A stretch of DNA of 64,000 bases from Thermoanaerobacterium sp. RBIITD (lineage in GTDB: Bacteria; Bacillota; Thermoanaerobacteria; Thermoanaerobacterales; Thermoanaerobacteraceae), in NCBI RefSeq assembly GCF_900205865.1, contig NZ_LT906662.1, forward strand, positions 2,307,411-2,371,410, read 5' to 3'. Of the stretch, positions 39,065 to 44,930 are shown piece by piece. Both the position numbers and the translations under genes were made by a program. The notes below the pieces were generated by a model. That model had not been told where the DNA came from, did no database searches, and saw only the letters and a list, made by a program, of their open reading frames with translations. Each line of letters starts with the position of its first letter. The stretch's first letter is position 1.

Positions 39065-39562
39065 TTACCTATTATCAATTTTTTCAGGATACAAGTCATG
39101 ATAAAAAAGTCTTTTTTCTGCAACATTTTCCCATTTCGTACCGGGTTTTCCATAATTACAATAAGGATCTATTGATATTCCACCCCTTGGTGTAAATTTA
39201 CCCCATACCTCGATATATTTTGGATCAAGGAGTTTAATTAAATCTTTCATTATGATATTGACACAATCCTCATGAAAATCCCCATGGTTTCTAAAGCTAA
39301 ATAAATATAGTTTTAATGATTTGCTTTCAACCATTAATTTATCGGGTACATACGAAATATAAATAGTTGCAAAATCAGGCTGGCCTGTTTTAGGACAAAG
39401 ACTTGTGAATTCTGGACAATTAAATTTAACAAAATAATCATTTTCTTGATGCTTATTTATGAATGTTTCAAGTACAGATGGATCATAATCATAATTATAT
39501 TTGGCGACTTTCCTTCCCAACAATGATAATTCGTCTAACTCTTTTCTGTTCCTCTCTGACAT
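39065..39562 (-). CDS. queF: NADPH-dependent 7-cyano-7-deazaguanine reductase
   Basis: About 165 residues, the length of the short (YkvM-type) QueF. The catalytic Cys is in [16 protein letters not shown], the substrate Glu-Ser-Lys-Ser in [17 protein letters not shown], and HEDCVN follows. It reduces preQ0 to preQ1 in queuosine synthesis, in the cytoplasm. ATG 39562 (MSERNRKEL) is taken as start; a TTG four codons upstream lies too close to AGAGAGGA. It is second in the operon after the precursor transporter queT and under a preQ1 riboswitch, a consistent regulatory logic. Confidence 0.94.
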
Positions 39563-39587
39563 AAAAATTTTCAATCCTCTCTTAAAA

Positions 39588-40076
39588 TCATAATCTATTT
39601 CTTAATTGTTTTACGAGAATAACACCAACTATTCCAGGGATGATTTGCCCTATTGTTACACTTGTAGCTAACAAATAATAAGGTACTTTAAGTAATACTG
39701 ATAGCCATATTGGTACAATTAATCCTGGAAATAAGATTATAGGTAATGAAATAAGCCAGTCATTTAGTTTATATTTCTTAATCTGGTAAACTGCAAAAGC
39801 CGTTAAAAGACCTACAGCTAACCCGCCAAGCATGTCTGGAAGACCGAAACCACCCAATAAAATATTGCTAAGCATGTTGCTTAAACCCATTGGCAATATC
39901 AAAAAAGGGAAAATTGCAGTTAATGCATATATTGAAGTCGCTATCCTTATCTGATATTGTCCAAAGGCAAAATTTTGAGTAAGATACATTATTACTAAGT
40001 ACAATGCTATAACAACACCAGAAATAGTAATTTTTTGTGTAGGTGTGTACTGCTTTTTTAATTTTTTATCCTCCAT
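39588..40076 (-). CDS. queT: Queuosine precursor ECF transporter substrate-binding protein
   Basis: A 162-residue membrane protein with five to six spans and the QueT-family look: [45 protein letters not shown] at the N-terminal half (read in two pieces around residue 35) and [19 protein letters not shown] in the middle. QueT is the S component that binds preQ0/preQ1 and works with a shared ECF energising module, not encoded here. It lies directly after a preQ1-I riboswitch and terminator and 13 bases before queF. Ribosome site AGGGGG. Confidence 0.9.
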
Positions 40077-40207: not shown

Positions 40208-40253
40208 TTTTCCATAGTTTTGTTTATAGACAGGATGGTTTCGAACTGTCTTA
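40208..40253 (-). promoter_or_regulatory. preQ1-I riboswitch
   Basis: On the minus strand P1 is GACAG with CTGTC, the loop holds CCATC, and the A-rich tail ATAAACAAAACTATGG ends in ATGG, which pairs with CCAT to form the H-type pseudoknot. This is the class I preQ1 aptamer layout, and it precedes queT-queF. Ligand binding should favour the terminator downstream. Confidence 0.85.
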
Positions 40254-40266
40254 TTAAATTATAATT

Positions 40267-40295: not shown

Positions 40296-40472
40296 GGTTC
40301 TATTATTTATATGCTAATTCACAGTTTAACTTTAAAATTATTGAAAATAGCATTTACGTAATAAATCGAGATTAATAAGCAGAAAATATAATAGTTATTT
40401 ATTAAACGAGAATGTATAGCTTTAAATAAACATTAATTCGATATTTTGAAACTTTAATAAATAATTAAATAA

Positions 40473-40481
40473 TGATATACT
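40473..40481 (+). promoter_or_regulatory. Extended -10 for the P-ATPase operon
   Basis: TGATATACT matches TGn-TATAAT with one change. It would give a ~135-nt leader that I cannot match to a known riboswitch. Confidence 0.5.
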
Positions 40482-40587
40482 GGAGAAAATATATATCGGG
40501 GTGATTTTTATGTAAGAGTCGAGCAATTTAAACATGTTTTATGATTTATTATATTCGAAGTGATGATTTATAGAATGGCTAATTATA

Positions 40588-40626
40588 AGGAGGTGTGAAA
40601 CCTGTTTATACAGGTTTATTACATTG
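40588..40626 (+). promoter_or_regulatory. Hairpin-spaced ribosome binding site of the P-ATPase gene
   Basis: AGGAGGTG (ending at 40595) is 28 nt from the TTG start. Between them AAACCTGT (40598-40605) pairs with ACAGGTTT (40610-40617) around TTAT. Removing the 20-nt hairpin leaves 8 nt, the normal distance. Confidence 0.7.
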
Positions 40627-43380
40627 AAGATTGATGATATATTTAGATTAACAGCTGATGACATATTTAATGAATTAAATACATCTATTAAAGGTCTTTC
40701 AAAGGATGAAGCAAATGCAAGGCTTCAGAAATATGGATATAATGAAATAAAGGAAGTTAAGAAATCATCACTGCTATCGCGATTTTTGGCAAATTTTACG
40801 CACCTATTAGCAATACTTCTCTGGATAGCCAGCATACTTTCTTTTATTGGTGGTATGCCACAGCTTGGTTGGGCAATAATACTGGTAATTATAGTAAATG
40901 CTTTATTTAGCTTTTGGCAAGAGTTTAAAGCAGAACAGGCTACAGAAAGTCTTAAAAAAATGCTACCATCATATGTTAAAGTAATAAGGGATGGGCATCA
41001 GGAACAAATATTAGCTCGAGAATTAGTCCCTGGAGATTTGATTTACCTTGAGGAAGGTGATCATATACCAGCTGATGCAAGGCTTATAGAAGCATTTGAG
41101 ATGAGGACAATCAATGCTGCACTAACTGGAGAATCTGAGCCTGTAAGGAGAACCTCTGATGTAGTACTTGATGAAGATGTATCATTACTTCAGTCACCAA
41201 ACCTAGTGTTTATGGGTACAAGTGTTGCATCAGGCTCTGGCACAGCGGTTGTTTATGCTACAGGTATGGACACGCAGTTTGGTAAAATCGCCTCATTAAC
41301 ACAAACCATAAAAATAGAACAGAGTCCTCTTCAAAGACAATTAACAAGAGTTGCACAAGTTATAGCATATCTATCACTTGTTATGGGGGTATTCTTTTTC
41401 CTCCTTGGTCTTTTGATGGGAAGATCATTAGTTGATACATTTATGTTTGCAATAGGTATAATTACCGCAAATGTACCTGAAGGATTATTGCCTACGGTAA
41501 CACTGGCACTTGCCATGGGAGTTCAGCGAATGGCAAGAAGACATGCGCTTGTAAAGAAGCTTTCAAGCGTTGAGACGCTTGGTGGAGCGACAGTTATTTG
41601 TACAGATAAGACGGGAACTTTGACACAGAATGAGATGACAGTTAGAGAGATTTGGACTCCTTTGGAATTTTACAATGTAAGCGGTATTGGATATGAACCA
41701 AAAGGTGAGTTTTCTGCAAATGGCAGACAAATAGACAATAAAAATCTTCCTGATGAATTATCATTATTATTGAAAATAGGTCTATTATGTAATAACAGCC
41801 GGTTAGTAAGGCCTACAAATGAGAATCCATCGTGGAATATTATTGGTGATCCTACTGAAGGCTCTTTAGTCGTACTGGCAGAAAAAGCAGGATATACTCT
41901 CGAAAATATGTTGAGAGAATATCCGAGAGTTTCACAGCTTCCATTTGATTCAAGACGTAAAAGAATGAGTTCCATACATAAGTCTGGAAAAGATATTTAT
42001 GTATTCACAAAAGGGGCACCTAAGGAGACACTTTCAGTTTGTAATTATATTTTTAAAGGCGAAGAAGGGGTAAAAAAGTTAGAACAATCAGATATTGATA
42101 AAGTAATAGAACAGAATGACAAATTTGCAGAATCTGGTTTAAGAGTTCTTGCAATGGCATACAAAAAAATAGACGATGAAAATAAGGAATATACAATAGA
42201 AAATACGGAAAATGATTTAATCTTCGTTGGTTTGGTAGCGATGATGGATCCGCCAAGGCCTGAAGTAGAATTAGCTGTAAAACATGCTCATAAGGCTGGA
42301 ATAAAGATTATCATGATAACAGGTGACTATGGATTAACAGCAGAATCTATTGCAAGGAGAATAGGTATAATAAAAGGATTGCATCCGAGAATAATTATAG
42401 GTAATGAACTTGATAAAATGACTGACGAGGATTTAAAGAAGGAGTTAAAAAATAAAGAAATTATTTTCGCAAGAGTTGCACCGGAGCATAAAATGAAAGT
42501 TGTAGCTGCACTTAAAGAAATGGGTGAAGTTGTAGCAGTTACTGGTGATGGTGTTAATGATTCACCGGCATTAAAGAGGGCTGATATCGGTATTGCAATG
42601 GGTAAATCTGGTACAGATGTAGCAAGAGAAGTAGCAACGATGGTATTGACAGACGATAATTTTGCCAGCATAGTAAATGCTATCGAAGAAGGCAGAGCTG
42701 TATATGATAACGTTAGGAAGTTCATAACATATATATTTGCACATCTAACACCAGAAGCTATACCGTATATTTTGTTTTCACTGTTTAATATACCTGTTCC
42801 AATAACAGTAATGCAGATATTGGCGATTGATTTAGGTACCGAAACATTGCCGGCTCTTGCACTTGGCGTTGAACCGCCTGAACCAGGTGTCATGGACAGA
42901 CCACCAAGGTCGCCTAAGGAAAAATTACTAAATCTGTCATTATTCCTCAGAGGATATGTTTTACTCGGGTTAATTAGTTCAGTAGCAGTACTTTCTGGAT
43001 ATTTTTGGGTATTGTATAGTGGTGGATGGCATTGGGGTGAAACCCTTCCATTTACGGCTCCGCTTGCTAAAAAAGCTGCTACAATGAGCTTTTTAGGAAT
43101 TGTAATAATGCAGGTTGCAAATGTATTTGCTTGTCGTACTGAAGTTGCATCTATGTTTAGTGTCGGCTTCTTTAAAAATAAATTATTAAACATAGGTGTT
43201 GTATTTGAATTAGTACTTACAGCGATACTTATATATGTGCCATTTTTGCAGAAAATATTTGACACATATCCTGTTTCATTTAAACATTGGCTGTTTTACT
43301 TAGCATTTATACCATTACTTATTGGTGCAGAAGAAATCAGGAAATGGATTTTGCGCAAGAAAATAAATGCAAACAAATAA
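40624..43380 (+). CDS. P-type cation-transporting ATPase, type IIC (Na,K-ATPase)-like
   Basis: A 918-residue P2-type ATPase. The actuator loop TGES is at 158-161, the proline motif NVPEGLLPTVT near 275, the phosphorylated Asp is D318 in DKTGTLT, the nucleotide domain has KGAPKETLS and DPPRPEV, and the hinge is TGDGVNDSPALKRADIGIAMG. About ten membrane spans. NVPEGLLPTVT, LTPEAIPYILF and ILAIDLGTETLPALALG follow the Na,K-ATPase class; the second acidic residue of the TM6 motif is Glu where Na,K-ATPase has Asp. Transported ions are not determinable, but Na+ or K+ are likelier than Ca2+ (inference). TTG start. The next two genes encode TrkA-type proteins. Confidence 0.93.
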   Translation: MKIDDIFRLTADDIFNELNTSIKGLSKDEANARLQKYGYNEIKEVKKSSLLSRFLANFTHLLAILLWIASILSFIGGMPQLGWAIILVIIVNALFSFWQEFKAEQATESLKKMLPSYVKVIRDGHQEQILARELVPGDLIYLEEGDHIPADARLIEAFEMRTINAALTGESEPVRRTSDVVLDEDVSLLQSPNLVFMGTSVASGSGTAVVYATGMDTQFGKIASLTQTIKIEQSPLQRQLTRVAQVIAYLSLVMGVFFFLLGLLMGRSLVDTFMFAIGIITANVPEGLLPTVTLALAMGVQRMARRHALVKKLSSVETLGGATVICTDKTGTLTQNEMTVREIWTPLEFYNVSGIGYEPKGEFSANGRQIDNKNLPDELSLLLKIGLLCNNSRLVRPTNENPSWNIIGDPTEGSLVVLAEKAGYTLENMLREYPRVSQLPFDSRRKRMSSIHKSGKDIYVFTKGAPKETLSVCNYIFKGEEGVKKLEQSDIDKVIEQNDKFAESGLRVLAMAYKKIDDENKEYTIENTENDLIFVGLVAMMDPPRPEVELAVKHAHKAGIKIIMITGDYGLTAESIARRIGIIKGLHPRIIIGNELDKMTDEDLKKELKNKEIIFARVAPEHKMKVVAALKEMGEVVAVTGDGVNDSPALKRADIGIAMGKSGTDVAREVATMVLTDDNFASIVNAIEEGRAVYDNVRKFITYIFAHLTPEAIPYILFSLFNIPVPITVMQILAIDLGTETLPALALGVEPPEPGVMDRPPRSPKEKLLNLSLFLRGYVLLGLISSVAVLSGYFWVLYSGGWHWGETLPFTAPLAKKAATMSFLGIVIMQVANVFACRTEVASMFSVGFFKNKLLNIGVVFELVLTAILIYVPFLQKIFDTYPVSFKHWLFYLAFIPLLIGAEEIRKWILRKKINANK

Positions 43381-43383
43381 AAA

Positions 43384-43417
43384 GGAGGTGAAAGGCTCTA
43401 TATGAGCCTGATTTATG
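43384..43417 (+). promoter_or_regulatory. Hairpin-spaced ribosome binding site of the first trkA-like gene
   Basis: GGAGGTG ends at 43390, 24 nt before ATG 43415. AGGCTC (43393-43398) pairs with GAGCCT (43404-43409) around TATAT. Without the 17-nt hairpin the spacing is 7 nt. Confidence 0.7.
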
Positions 43418-44059
43418 AATATAATAGTTGCCGGATGCGGCAGACTTGGTGCACAGTTGACACAAATATTAGATGCCGATGGATACCATGTCACAGTAAT
43501 TGATAAAGACAAAAATGCTTTTAAAAGACTAAAAACATTTAAGGGTGAATTTATAGAAGGGATCGCATTTGATAAAGCCACTCTTATAAGGGCTGGCATT
43601 GAAAATGCTGACGCAATAGCTTCTGTGACAAATGGCGATAATACTAATATCGTTACAGCTTTGATTGCAAAGAAAAAGTTTAAAGTTCCAACTATAGTAG
43701 CAAGAATTTATGACCCAATACGAGCAGAGATATATAGAAAAATGGGAATAAATACAGTTTCTCCTACATTATGGGGTGCAAATAAGATAAAAGACCTCAT
43801 ATGTCATCCCGATTTGTTTAGAGTATCGTCATTTGGGAATGGTGAAGTAGAGATAATAGAAACAGAGGCATCTATATTTTTGGATGGTCGCCATGTTAGA
43901 GATATTTCCATACCATCTGAAGTTAATGTAGTCAGTATAGTTAGGAACGGGATAGCGGTTATACCAACACCGAGCACAACTTTTAAAAAAGGTGATAAAA
44001 TCTTTATCGCTTCAACAGCTTTTGGAAAATCAAAGATAAAACAAATGTTTATGTCATAA
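43415..44059 (+). CDS. TrkA/KtrA-like RCK protein, first of pair
   Basis: A 214-residue stand-alone regulator of conductance of K+ fold. The N-terminal Rossmann domain begins MNIIVAGCGRLGAQLTQIL with the GxGxxG site and the acidic ribose ligand in VTVIDKDKNAF; NADH or ATP/ADP binding is expected. The C-terminal RCK_C domain (about 140-214) has DGRHVRDISIPSEVNVVSIVRNG and GDKIFIAS. Such proteins gate KtrB/TrkH channels, but no channel gene is in this operon: it follows the P-type ATPase by 35 bases and is followed by a second RCK gene. Regulation of the pump itself is one possible role (inference). Confidence 0.9.
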   Translation: MNIIVAGCGRLGAQLTQILDADGYHVTVIDKDKNAFKRLKTFKGEFIEGIAFDKATLIRAGIENADAIASVTNGDNTNIVTALIAKKKFKVPTIVARIYDPIRAEIYRKMGINTVSPTLWGANKIKDLICHPDLFRVSSFGNGEVEIIETEASIFLDGRHVRDISIPSEVNVVSIVRNGIAVIPTPSTTFKKGDKIFIASTAFGKSKIKQMFMS

Positions 44060-44076
44060 TTTAAAAATATTTTAGT

Positions 44077-44140
44077 AGGAGGTGAAAGAACCTGCTGGGA
44101 ACAATGTACATAAAGTTTCCGAGTAACAGGTCATAATATG
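44077..44140 (+). promoter_or_regulatory. Hairpin-spaced ribosome binding site of the second trkA-like gene
   Basis: AGGAGGTG ends at 44084, 53 nt before ATG 44138. ACCTG (44090-44094) pairs with CAGGT (44127-44131), and inside it GGGAAC (44097-44102) pairs with GTTTCC (44115-44120). Removing the 42-nt structure leaves 11 nt. Confidence 0.62.
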
Positions 44141-44797
44141 TCGATAATGATAGTTGGCGCTGGGCGCCTCGGTTCATTTCTCGCTAAATTGATGGAAGAA
44201 AAGAATAAAGAGGTTGTTGTCGTTGAAAAAGACGAGGCAAAAATTGAAAAGTTAAGAAAAGATTTAAGATGCTCCATTATGATTGGCGATGGCTGCAATT
44301 CAGATATCTTAAAAAAAGCGGGAATCATTGGAGCTGAAATAGTAGTTGCTGCTACTGGGCATGATGAAGATAATCTTATAATATGTCAGCTTGCTAAATA
44401 CGAATTTGGAGTATCAAGAGTAGTTTCACGAATAAACAACCCTAAAAATGAGTGGCTTTTTACAAAAGATATGGGCGTTGACGCTGCTGTAAGCAGTGCC
44501 AGAATAATTGCAAAATTAATTGAAGAAGAAGCAGAGATAAGCAGCCTCACAACGATTATAAATCTCGCTGAGGGGAAAATATCCCTTGTAAGAAGCATAA
44601 TTGAAAAAAATTCAAAAGCTGCTCATAAATTGATAAAAGATTTAAAGCTTCCAGATGATTGCGTAATAATGTCGATAGTAAGGGACAATAAAGTATTATT
44701 GCCGAATGGCAATACAAAAATATTACCAGGTGATGAAGTTTTAAGTGTTGTTAGTGATGAAAGCAAAGAAAAATTAGAAGATTTGTTTAATATATAG
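44138..44797 (+). CDS. TrkA/KtrA-like RCK protein, second of pair
   Basis: A 219-residue paralogue of the preceding protein: MSIMIVGAGRLGSFLAKLM with GxGxxG, VVVVEKDEAKIEKL, GDGCNSDILKKAGI, then VSRINNPKNEWLFTKDMGVDAAVSS and a C-terminal RCK_C domain (LIKDLKLPDDCVIMSIVRDNKVLLPNG, PGDEVLSVV). The two RCK proteins could assemble as a hetero-octameric ring, as KtrA and related rings do, although that arrangement is inferred only. The gene is last in the operon and its stop starts a terminator hairpin. Confidence 0.9.
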   Translation: MSIMIVGAGRLGSFLAKLMEEKNKEVVVVEKDEAKIEKLRKDLRCSIMIGDGCNSDILKKAGIIGAEIVVAATGHDEDNLIICQLAKYEFGVSRVVSRINNPKNEWLFTKDMGVDAAVSSARIIAKLIEEEAEISSLTTIINLAEGKISLVRSIIEKNSKAAHKLIKDLKLPDDCVIMSIVRDNKVLLPNGNTKILPGDEVLSVVSDESKEKLEDLFNI

Positions 44798-44825
44798 AGA
44801 CTGTGCGAAGGCACAGTTTCTTTTT
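44797..44825 (+). terminator. Terminator of the P-ATPase/trkA operon
   Basis: GAGACTGTGC pairs with GCACAGTTTC (one wobble) around GAAG, followed by TTTTTA. Confidence 0.88.
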
Positions 44826-44930
44826 ATATCTAGTTTTTAAATTACTTGAAATCTTCGATATCTTTCACATTTGATTCAAACCAAGGTGTCCACCTTCTTT
44901 TTTCACTTGAAAAATTCAAAAAAATATTTT

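Follow-up and report, generated by a model that had tools for sequence, protein, structure and literature searches.

The window analysed here is a stretch of 64,000 nucleotides (nt) from Thermoanaerobacterium sp. RBIITD (contig NZ_LT906662.1, positions 2307411–2371410; genome G000 of 3.4 Mb (3.403 Mb)). It carries, on the forward strand, a P-type ATPase/trkA/trkA operon that spans 40624–44797. Each of the three genes has a strong Shine-Dalgarno (SD) sequence at a long distance from its start codon, and an inverted repeat fills each gap. Sequence comparison and folding models make it probable (about 0.68) that each gene uses a hairpin-shortened, or split, ribosome-binding site, as phage T4 genes 38 and 25 do. 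To our knowledge, hairpin-shortened ribosome-binding sites are known from these two T4 genes. At such a site, the 30S subunit would dock on the unusually long SD duplex of each gene, the folded hairpin 3' of the SD would absorb the surplus spacer and leave 9–13 nt between GGAGG and the start, and initiation would then proceed as at an ordinary site. We infer both ribosomal use of the bridge and its necessity for expression.

Geometry of the three ribosome-binding sites

The three sites are numbered in the order of the genes (site 1, ATPase; site 2, trkA1; site 3, trkA2; Table 1). The raw distances between GGAGG and the start codon are 30, 26, and 55 nt, respectively, and without the hairpin they are 10, 9, and 11–13 nt. 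The gaps of 28, 24, and 53 nt and the residuals of 8, 7, and 11 nt given by the initial annotation are correct if the count begins at the end of GGAGGTG. The strong SD and the inverted repeat that it described in each gap (8 bp; 6 bp; 5 + 6 bp) are read directly in the sequence. Closer to the start codons, the SD of each operon gene is weak, with a best near match of 4 nt; all matches are scored against an assumed anti-SD sequence rather than one read from the 16S gene of this genome.

The outer stem of site 3 pairs ACCTG (44090–44094) with CAGGT (44127–44131), which makes 5 bp here and 6 in other species, and the inner stem pairs GGGAAC (44097–44102) with GTTTCC (44115–44120), with one G–U pair. 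ACCTG and CAGGT are also present in the arms of site 1. The stems had been described as unrelated; this holds for site 2, the arms of which are distinct, and does not hold for sites 1 and 3.

The start codons are backed by comparison. Alignments of trkA1 and trkA2 to their relatives open at residue 1, which is also the start of those relatives' genes. Upstream of the ATPase TTG, no in-frame ATG, GTG, or TTG precedes a stop in 8/8 species, and the in-frame stop falls within the site 1 hairpin in 7/8 (TAA; TGA in G008). Other start codons for the three genes are rejected on the relatives' starts and on the in-frame stops upstream of gene 1.

Table 1 Features of the operon and its leader (window coordinates)
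Feature	Coordinates	Strand	Description
Candidate operon promoter	40454..40481	+	TTAATA-16-TATACT, TG ahead of -10; consensus scan and alignment
Leader mini-ORF	40498..40515	+	SD-like GGGGTGAT; here ATG then TAA directly
Site 1 SD	40586..40595	+	TAAGGAGGTG; 10-nt anti-SD match
Site 1 bridging hairpin	40598..40617	+	8 bp stem, AAACCTGT 40598-40605 / ACAGGTTT 40610-40617; loop TTAT
P-type ATPase gene	40624..43380	+	TTG start; 918 aa; type II cation pump
Site 2 SD	43382..43391	+	AAGGAGGTGA; 10-nt anti-SD match
Site 2 bridging hairpin	43393..43409	+	6 bp stem, AGGCTC 43393-43398 / GAGCCT 43404-43409; loop TATAT
trkA1	43415..44059	+	RCK protein with TrkA_N and TrkA_C; ATG start; 214 aa
Site 3 SD	44077..44085	+	AGGAGGTGA; 9-nt anti-SD match
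Site 3 bridging hairpin	44090..44131	+	Outer 5 bp stem, inner 6 bp stem, variable loop
trkA2	44138..44797	+	RCK protein with TrkA_N and TrkA_C; ATG start; 219 aa
Terminator-like hairpin closing the operon	44796..44826	+	11-pair stem, T-rich tail; terminator scan

Conservation within Thermoanaerobacterium

Nine species of the genus are compared (locus L001 and the G002 contig are apparently one record and are counted once). A trkA1 orthologue is present in 9/9, and the gene 1 leader is present in all eight species whose contig reaches it; in G005 (assembly 89% complete, 610 contigs), site 1 is absent at a contig end. The nearest named relative that carries the operon is Thermoanaerobacterium butyriciformans (trkA1, 88% identity).

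At site 1, the 8 bp stem is invariant in 8/8 species and the loop is 4 or 5 nt, so that the raw spacing is 30–31 nt and the residual is 10 nt throughout. At site 3, both stems are retained in 9/9 species, save an end pair in G000, and GGAGG is invariant across the aligned species. The raw spacing there ranges from 52 to 55 nt, and the residual, counted alike, is 11 nt in 8/9 species and 12 nt in G008. The stem of site 2 is intact in 7/9 species. Since its raw spacing is 26 nt in 9/9, site 2 adds nothing to the argument from a steady residual. In accordance with the expectation that orthologues keep a steady effective spacing, the residual is held within the genus while the raw spacing shifts at sites 1 and 3.

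Loop sequence varies at all three sites, and loop length varies at sites 1 and 3. Invariant columns make up 47/50 (94%) of the stems, as against 13/29 (45%) of loop and internal positions and 111/276 (40%) of the upstream noncoding sequence (Fisher p = 1.6e-6 and 1.2e-13, respectively; the values are a guide, as columns are taken as independent and the species share ancestry).

Rarity of the arrangement

When the spacers are dinucleotide-shuffled, an equally stable, correctly placed hairpin arises in 7/1000, 1/1000, and 3/300 trials for sites 1, 2, and 3, respectively. The genome itself was sampled over 1.264 Mb of its 3.403 Mb (37%), giving 1316 open reading frames (ORFs) by a simple longest-ORF rule; the operon window was put in this sample on the ground that it was already flagged. 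An SD match of at least 9 nt at normal spacing is found for 28 of the 1316 ORFs. A weak normally spaced SD (<5 nt) combined with a far SD of at least 7 nt is found for 24. Six of these have any qualifying stem of at least 5 bp, and three have a stem with at least three G–C pairs, which are exactly the three genes of the operon. No further gene among the 1316 sampled ORFs has a far strong SD together with a weak near one and a bridging stem of at least three G–C pairs.

When the rule is loosened to an energy of -4 kcal/mol or better, 11/35 cases qualify in G000 and 4/14 in G001, three being the operon in each, and 1/8 qualify in G010, a genome of the same family. A search for the same arms (GGAGGTG, ACCTG, CAGGT) in 20 genomes of the family gives 22 matches. 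Sites 1 and 3 of this operon account for 17 of them, and the other 5 lie elsewhere, in 5 genomes. By eye, no hairpin of this kind is present at the second trkA pair of the same genome (L064), where GGGAGG lies near the start of the first gene and the second gene has a weak near site.

Three of the eight non-operon cases in G000 under the looser rule were inspected (L070 and two in L136). The first is a possible fourth split site, at a gene that resembles a response regulator, a function guessed from sequence (G000:C1:1376381, minus strand; L070:16381). It has TAAGGAGG, a 7-pair hairpin, and an ATG 39 nt on, and it has a match at E 1e-40 in 2/9 genomes. In the G006 counterpart (L188), the hairpin is kept, the loop is changed, and the reading frame contains a single TAA; a GTG that lies in frame 3 nt past the SD counts against a split site. 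In addition, four alike leaders of the type GGAGGTGAAAAAAGATTATG are present at G000:C1:1669506, 1672942, 1678346 (L136:9506-18367), and 1682082. The leader at 1672942 is followed by a five-codon ORF (ATG AAA TAT TCC CCT TAA) and another GGGAGG ahead of the main gene.

Orthologues outside the genus

The order ATPase/trkA/trkA is found in eight loci outside the genus, four in actinobacterial metagenome-assembled genomes (L002–L005) and four in other families of the same phylum (L103–L106). Identities, partial matches included, are 49–54% for the ATPase, 41–52% for trkA1, and 35–52% for trkA2. More distant relatives of the ATPase (39–44%; L039–L042) have no trkA in their short flanks. At the cut-offs used, trkA1 relatives are present in 9/24 genomes of the order, all of the genus, and in 9/398 genomes of the phylum, four outside the genus; none is detected at E 1e-30 in the 15 non-genus genomes of the order.

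By eye, no bridging hairpin is present at the trkA starts of L002–L009 and L103–L106, which have ordinary near SDs instead. The starts of gene 1 are only roughly readable in L003–L005 and L039–L041, and the L103–L106 loci are without that end, so the absence of the gene 1 hairpin outside the genus is weakly tested. Because the non-genus trkA genes have near SDs and the other 15 genomes of the order have no trkA1 relative at that cut-off, the arrangement looks like a lineage-specific gain. It is likely to have originated in the Thermoanaerobacterium lineage and to have become fixed on each of the three genes, and the operon therefore probably has one translational setting common to its three genes. 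The conserved stems and residual spacing, the near SDs at non-genus trkA genes, and the T4 precedent support the proposal that hairpins shorten the SD spacing of all three genes.

Predicted folding and alternative roles of the hairpins

The folding results are model values for standard salt and short sequence context. At 60–70 °C, taken as the growth temperature of these thermophiles, the predicted stem occupancy is 0.83–0.97 at site 1, 0.77–0.98 at site 2 without G005 (0.01 in G005), and 0.56–0.94 at site 3, indicating that the bridge would be mostly closed at growth temperature. The initial annotation had suggested control by temperature, which these occupancies do not favor. An RNA thermometer would need stems that melt or form within the growth range and so set translation by temperature. 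The accessibility of the site 1 SD does climb gradually (unpaired probability 0.26–0.48 at 25–37 °C and 0.38–0.58 at 60 °C), as in any structured leader, but the bridging stems are predicted to stay mostly folded at 60–70 °C with no sharp transition. A thermometer is therefore very unlikely.

Several observations weigh against split sites. First, the residual spacing of 9–13 nt is at the long end for this genome, where GGAGG usually lies 7–8 nt from the start (106/181 near SDs of at least 6 nt in a first sample); of the 181, 137 are at 3–8 nt and 44 at 9–12 nt. Second, the site 1 stem can lengthen so that part of the SD and the start become paired, which would lower initiation. Third, the outer stem of site 3 in G000 is not favored at 37 °C (mean pair probability 0.07, and 0.56 at 60 °C, over six positions, one unpairable). 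Fourth, the site 2 stem is shortened in G002 by loss of the end pair and is broken in G005 by an A·C mismatch in mid-stem, with which it is predicted to be unfolded. A long gap without a stem in an orthologue had been named as the case that would count against the proposal; G005 site 2, which keeps the gap with its broken stem, is such a case. Prediction and conservation indicate that the hairpin would restore a working spacing (9–13 nt left), except at site 2 of G005.

Fifth, compensatory changes in the stems, which had been put forward as a test of the structure, are not seen. A role in geometry alone would leave room for such changes, which would support a split site of the T4 type but do not define one. 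Among 18 counted pairs of sites 2 and 3 (5 distinct of 9 rows and 7 distinct of 9 rows, respectively), there is one G–U/A–U change and no compensatory double change, and the site 1 stem is invariant. Absence of covariation, which was to speak against the proposal, is thus in part what is observed, although none is seen because the stems hardly vary. Without double changes, the structure is not separable from conserved sequence.

Stem sequence that is kept without covariation, and the ACCTG/CAGGT arms common to sites 1 and 3, would also be accounted for if each hairpin were a bistable element. In such an element, the 5' arm acts as an anti-SD: when the hairpin is closed, the SD is free and the gene is on; when it is open, the SD is covered and the gene is off. 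The 3' arm, freed on opening, bears a piece of SD, which is GAG at site 2 and AGGU at the other two sites. A factor or the order of transcription would set the balance for all three genes. The 5' arm would then be bound to two partners, which would block covariation and make each site a two-state element. When arm–arm pairing is penalised, the next fold pairs the 5' arm with the SD in 26/26 site-by-species cases. Three to five SD bases are paired per case: GGAG/CUCU at site 2 and, with few exceptions, AGGU/ACCU at sites 1 and 3. The arms pair with the SD better than permuted arms do (G000 p = 0.028, 0.094, and 0.037 for sites 1, 2, and 3; 0.007–0.106 over the 11 cases tried of 26, from G000, G004, G005, and G006).

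The same calculations limit this explanation. In 24/26 cases, the closed form is the more stable, with a margin of up to 8.8 kcal/mol at 37 °C, and the two forms are equal in energy for G000 site 3 and G005 site 2; the default state of a bistable element would therefore be on. The comparison with fully random arms gives p values of 0.043–0.124 only (11 cases tried), since a purine-rich SD finds partners readily, and site 2 misses 0.05 in both controls. The pairing of the 5' arm with the SD is no more than suggestive, and we regard a bistable element as a tentative possibility. A combined form, in which three compact switches both shorten the distance from SD to start and hold the 5' arm off the SD, so that opening would shut off the pump and its RCK partners together, appears rather doubtful.

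Alternatively, the hairpins could be sites for an RNA-binding protein, possibly a product of the operon itself, with the long spacing as a side effect. The stem sequence is almost frozen (47/50 columns), which a protein that reads the arms could explain, and sites 1 and 3 have arms in common. However, the arms of site 2 differ, loop sequence is variable at all three sites, as is loop length at sites 1 and 3, and the residual spacing hardly changes, although a binding site alone would have no need of this. This alternative is unlikely.

The SDs could also serve short ORFs that start in the hairpins, the main genes being translated by coupling. The loop of site 2 has an out-of-frame ATG (six species) or TTG (three), 13 nt from GGAGG in 9/9, and frames that begin with CTG, a rare start codon, are seen by eye at sites 1 and 3. 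However, the site 2 frame enters trkA1 out of frame, and the alignment, read by eye, has neither frames nor stops kept from species to species at sites 1 and 3. Leader peptides of this kind are rejected on that ground and seem highly improbable. The loop ATG of site 2 (43402–43404, +) could instead be a decoy start concealed by the hairpin.

The gaps were also examined for terminators and attenuators, which are rejected, as no T run lies 3' of any of the three stems. The terminator scan gives three terminator-like sites on the + strand, two within genes and one at the operon end.

The cation pump, the leader, and a neighboring riboswitch match

The best curated model for the ATPase is that of PMR1-type calcium pumps (678.6 bits, under the cut-off of 798.3); the Na,K-pump model scores 625.6 bits. 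For the stretch of transmembrane helices 5 and 6 (TM5–TM6; PE...IDLGTE), Na,K-ATPase alpha chains score highest among solved relatives (75.9 bits), with SERCA slightly lower (73.2 bits) and the bacterial calcium pump lmo0841 well below (52.8 bits). The TM5–TM6 score, and the two RCK genes that also follow the non-genus homologues, suggest that the enzyme is possibly an RCK-partnered P-type cation pump.

Upstream of site 1, TATACTGGAGAAAA in the candidate promoter region is unchanged in 8 species on the alignment. The leader mini-ORF is conserved (also in the leaders of L032–L038); it has an SD-like GGTGAT and reads ATG CCG/CCT TTA TGA (MPL-stop) in 7/8 species; its ATG lies 55–79 nt upstream of the site 1 GGAGG across species.

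A search for Rfam and riboswitch families gives four matches at E up to 1, none of which is on the + strand in the leader or the gaps, and a known riboswitch there is rejected accordingly. One match is a preQ1 riboswitch at 40208–40254 (-), which scores 28.6 bits, under the cut-off of 39 (E 0.0074). It sits upstream of QueT- and QueF-family genes (39065–40076, -). Given these genes downstream, the match is probably genuine.

Comparison with known translation initiation regions

No bacterial operon of such build is found among the titles and abstract openings of the open-access matches listed, which do not cover subscription journals. A set of such sites conserved across the genus on three neighboring genes would make the operon a natural setting in which to examine how much structure in the spacer initiation can bear. 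Methods that treat SD spacing as a linear distance would class these genes as poorly translated.

According to a review on T4 (PMC3014915), SD and AUG are separated by 22 and 27 nt in genes 38 and 25, respectively, and experiments indicate that RNA structure cuts these distances to 5 and 11 nt. The operon sites likewise have a long distance from SD to start that is bridged by RNA structure. The arrangement of gene 25 is described there as present in close T-even relatives and absent in distant ones (PMC3014915), and the arrangement of the operon similarly looks like a lineage-specific gain. Unlike genes 38 and 25, the operon lies on the bacterial chromosome of a thermophile, involves three consecutive genes with gaps of up to 55 nt, and is known by prediction. 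In a second group of T4 genes, e, soc, 49, and I-TevI, a helix hides the SD, the AUG, or both (PMC3014915). The operon genes resemble these in having mRNA structure at the initiation region, and differ in that the SD and the start are outside the main stem, with a 5' arm that could hide the SD if the hairpin were opened.

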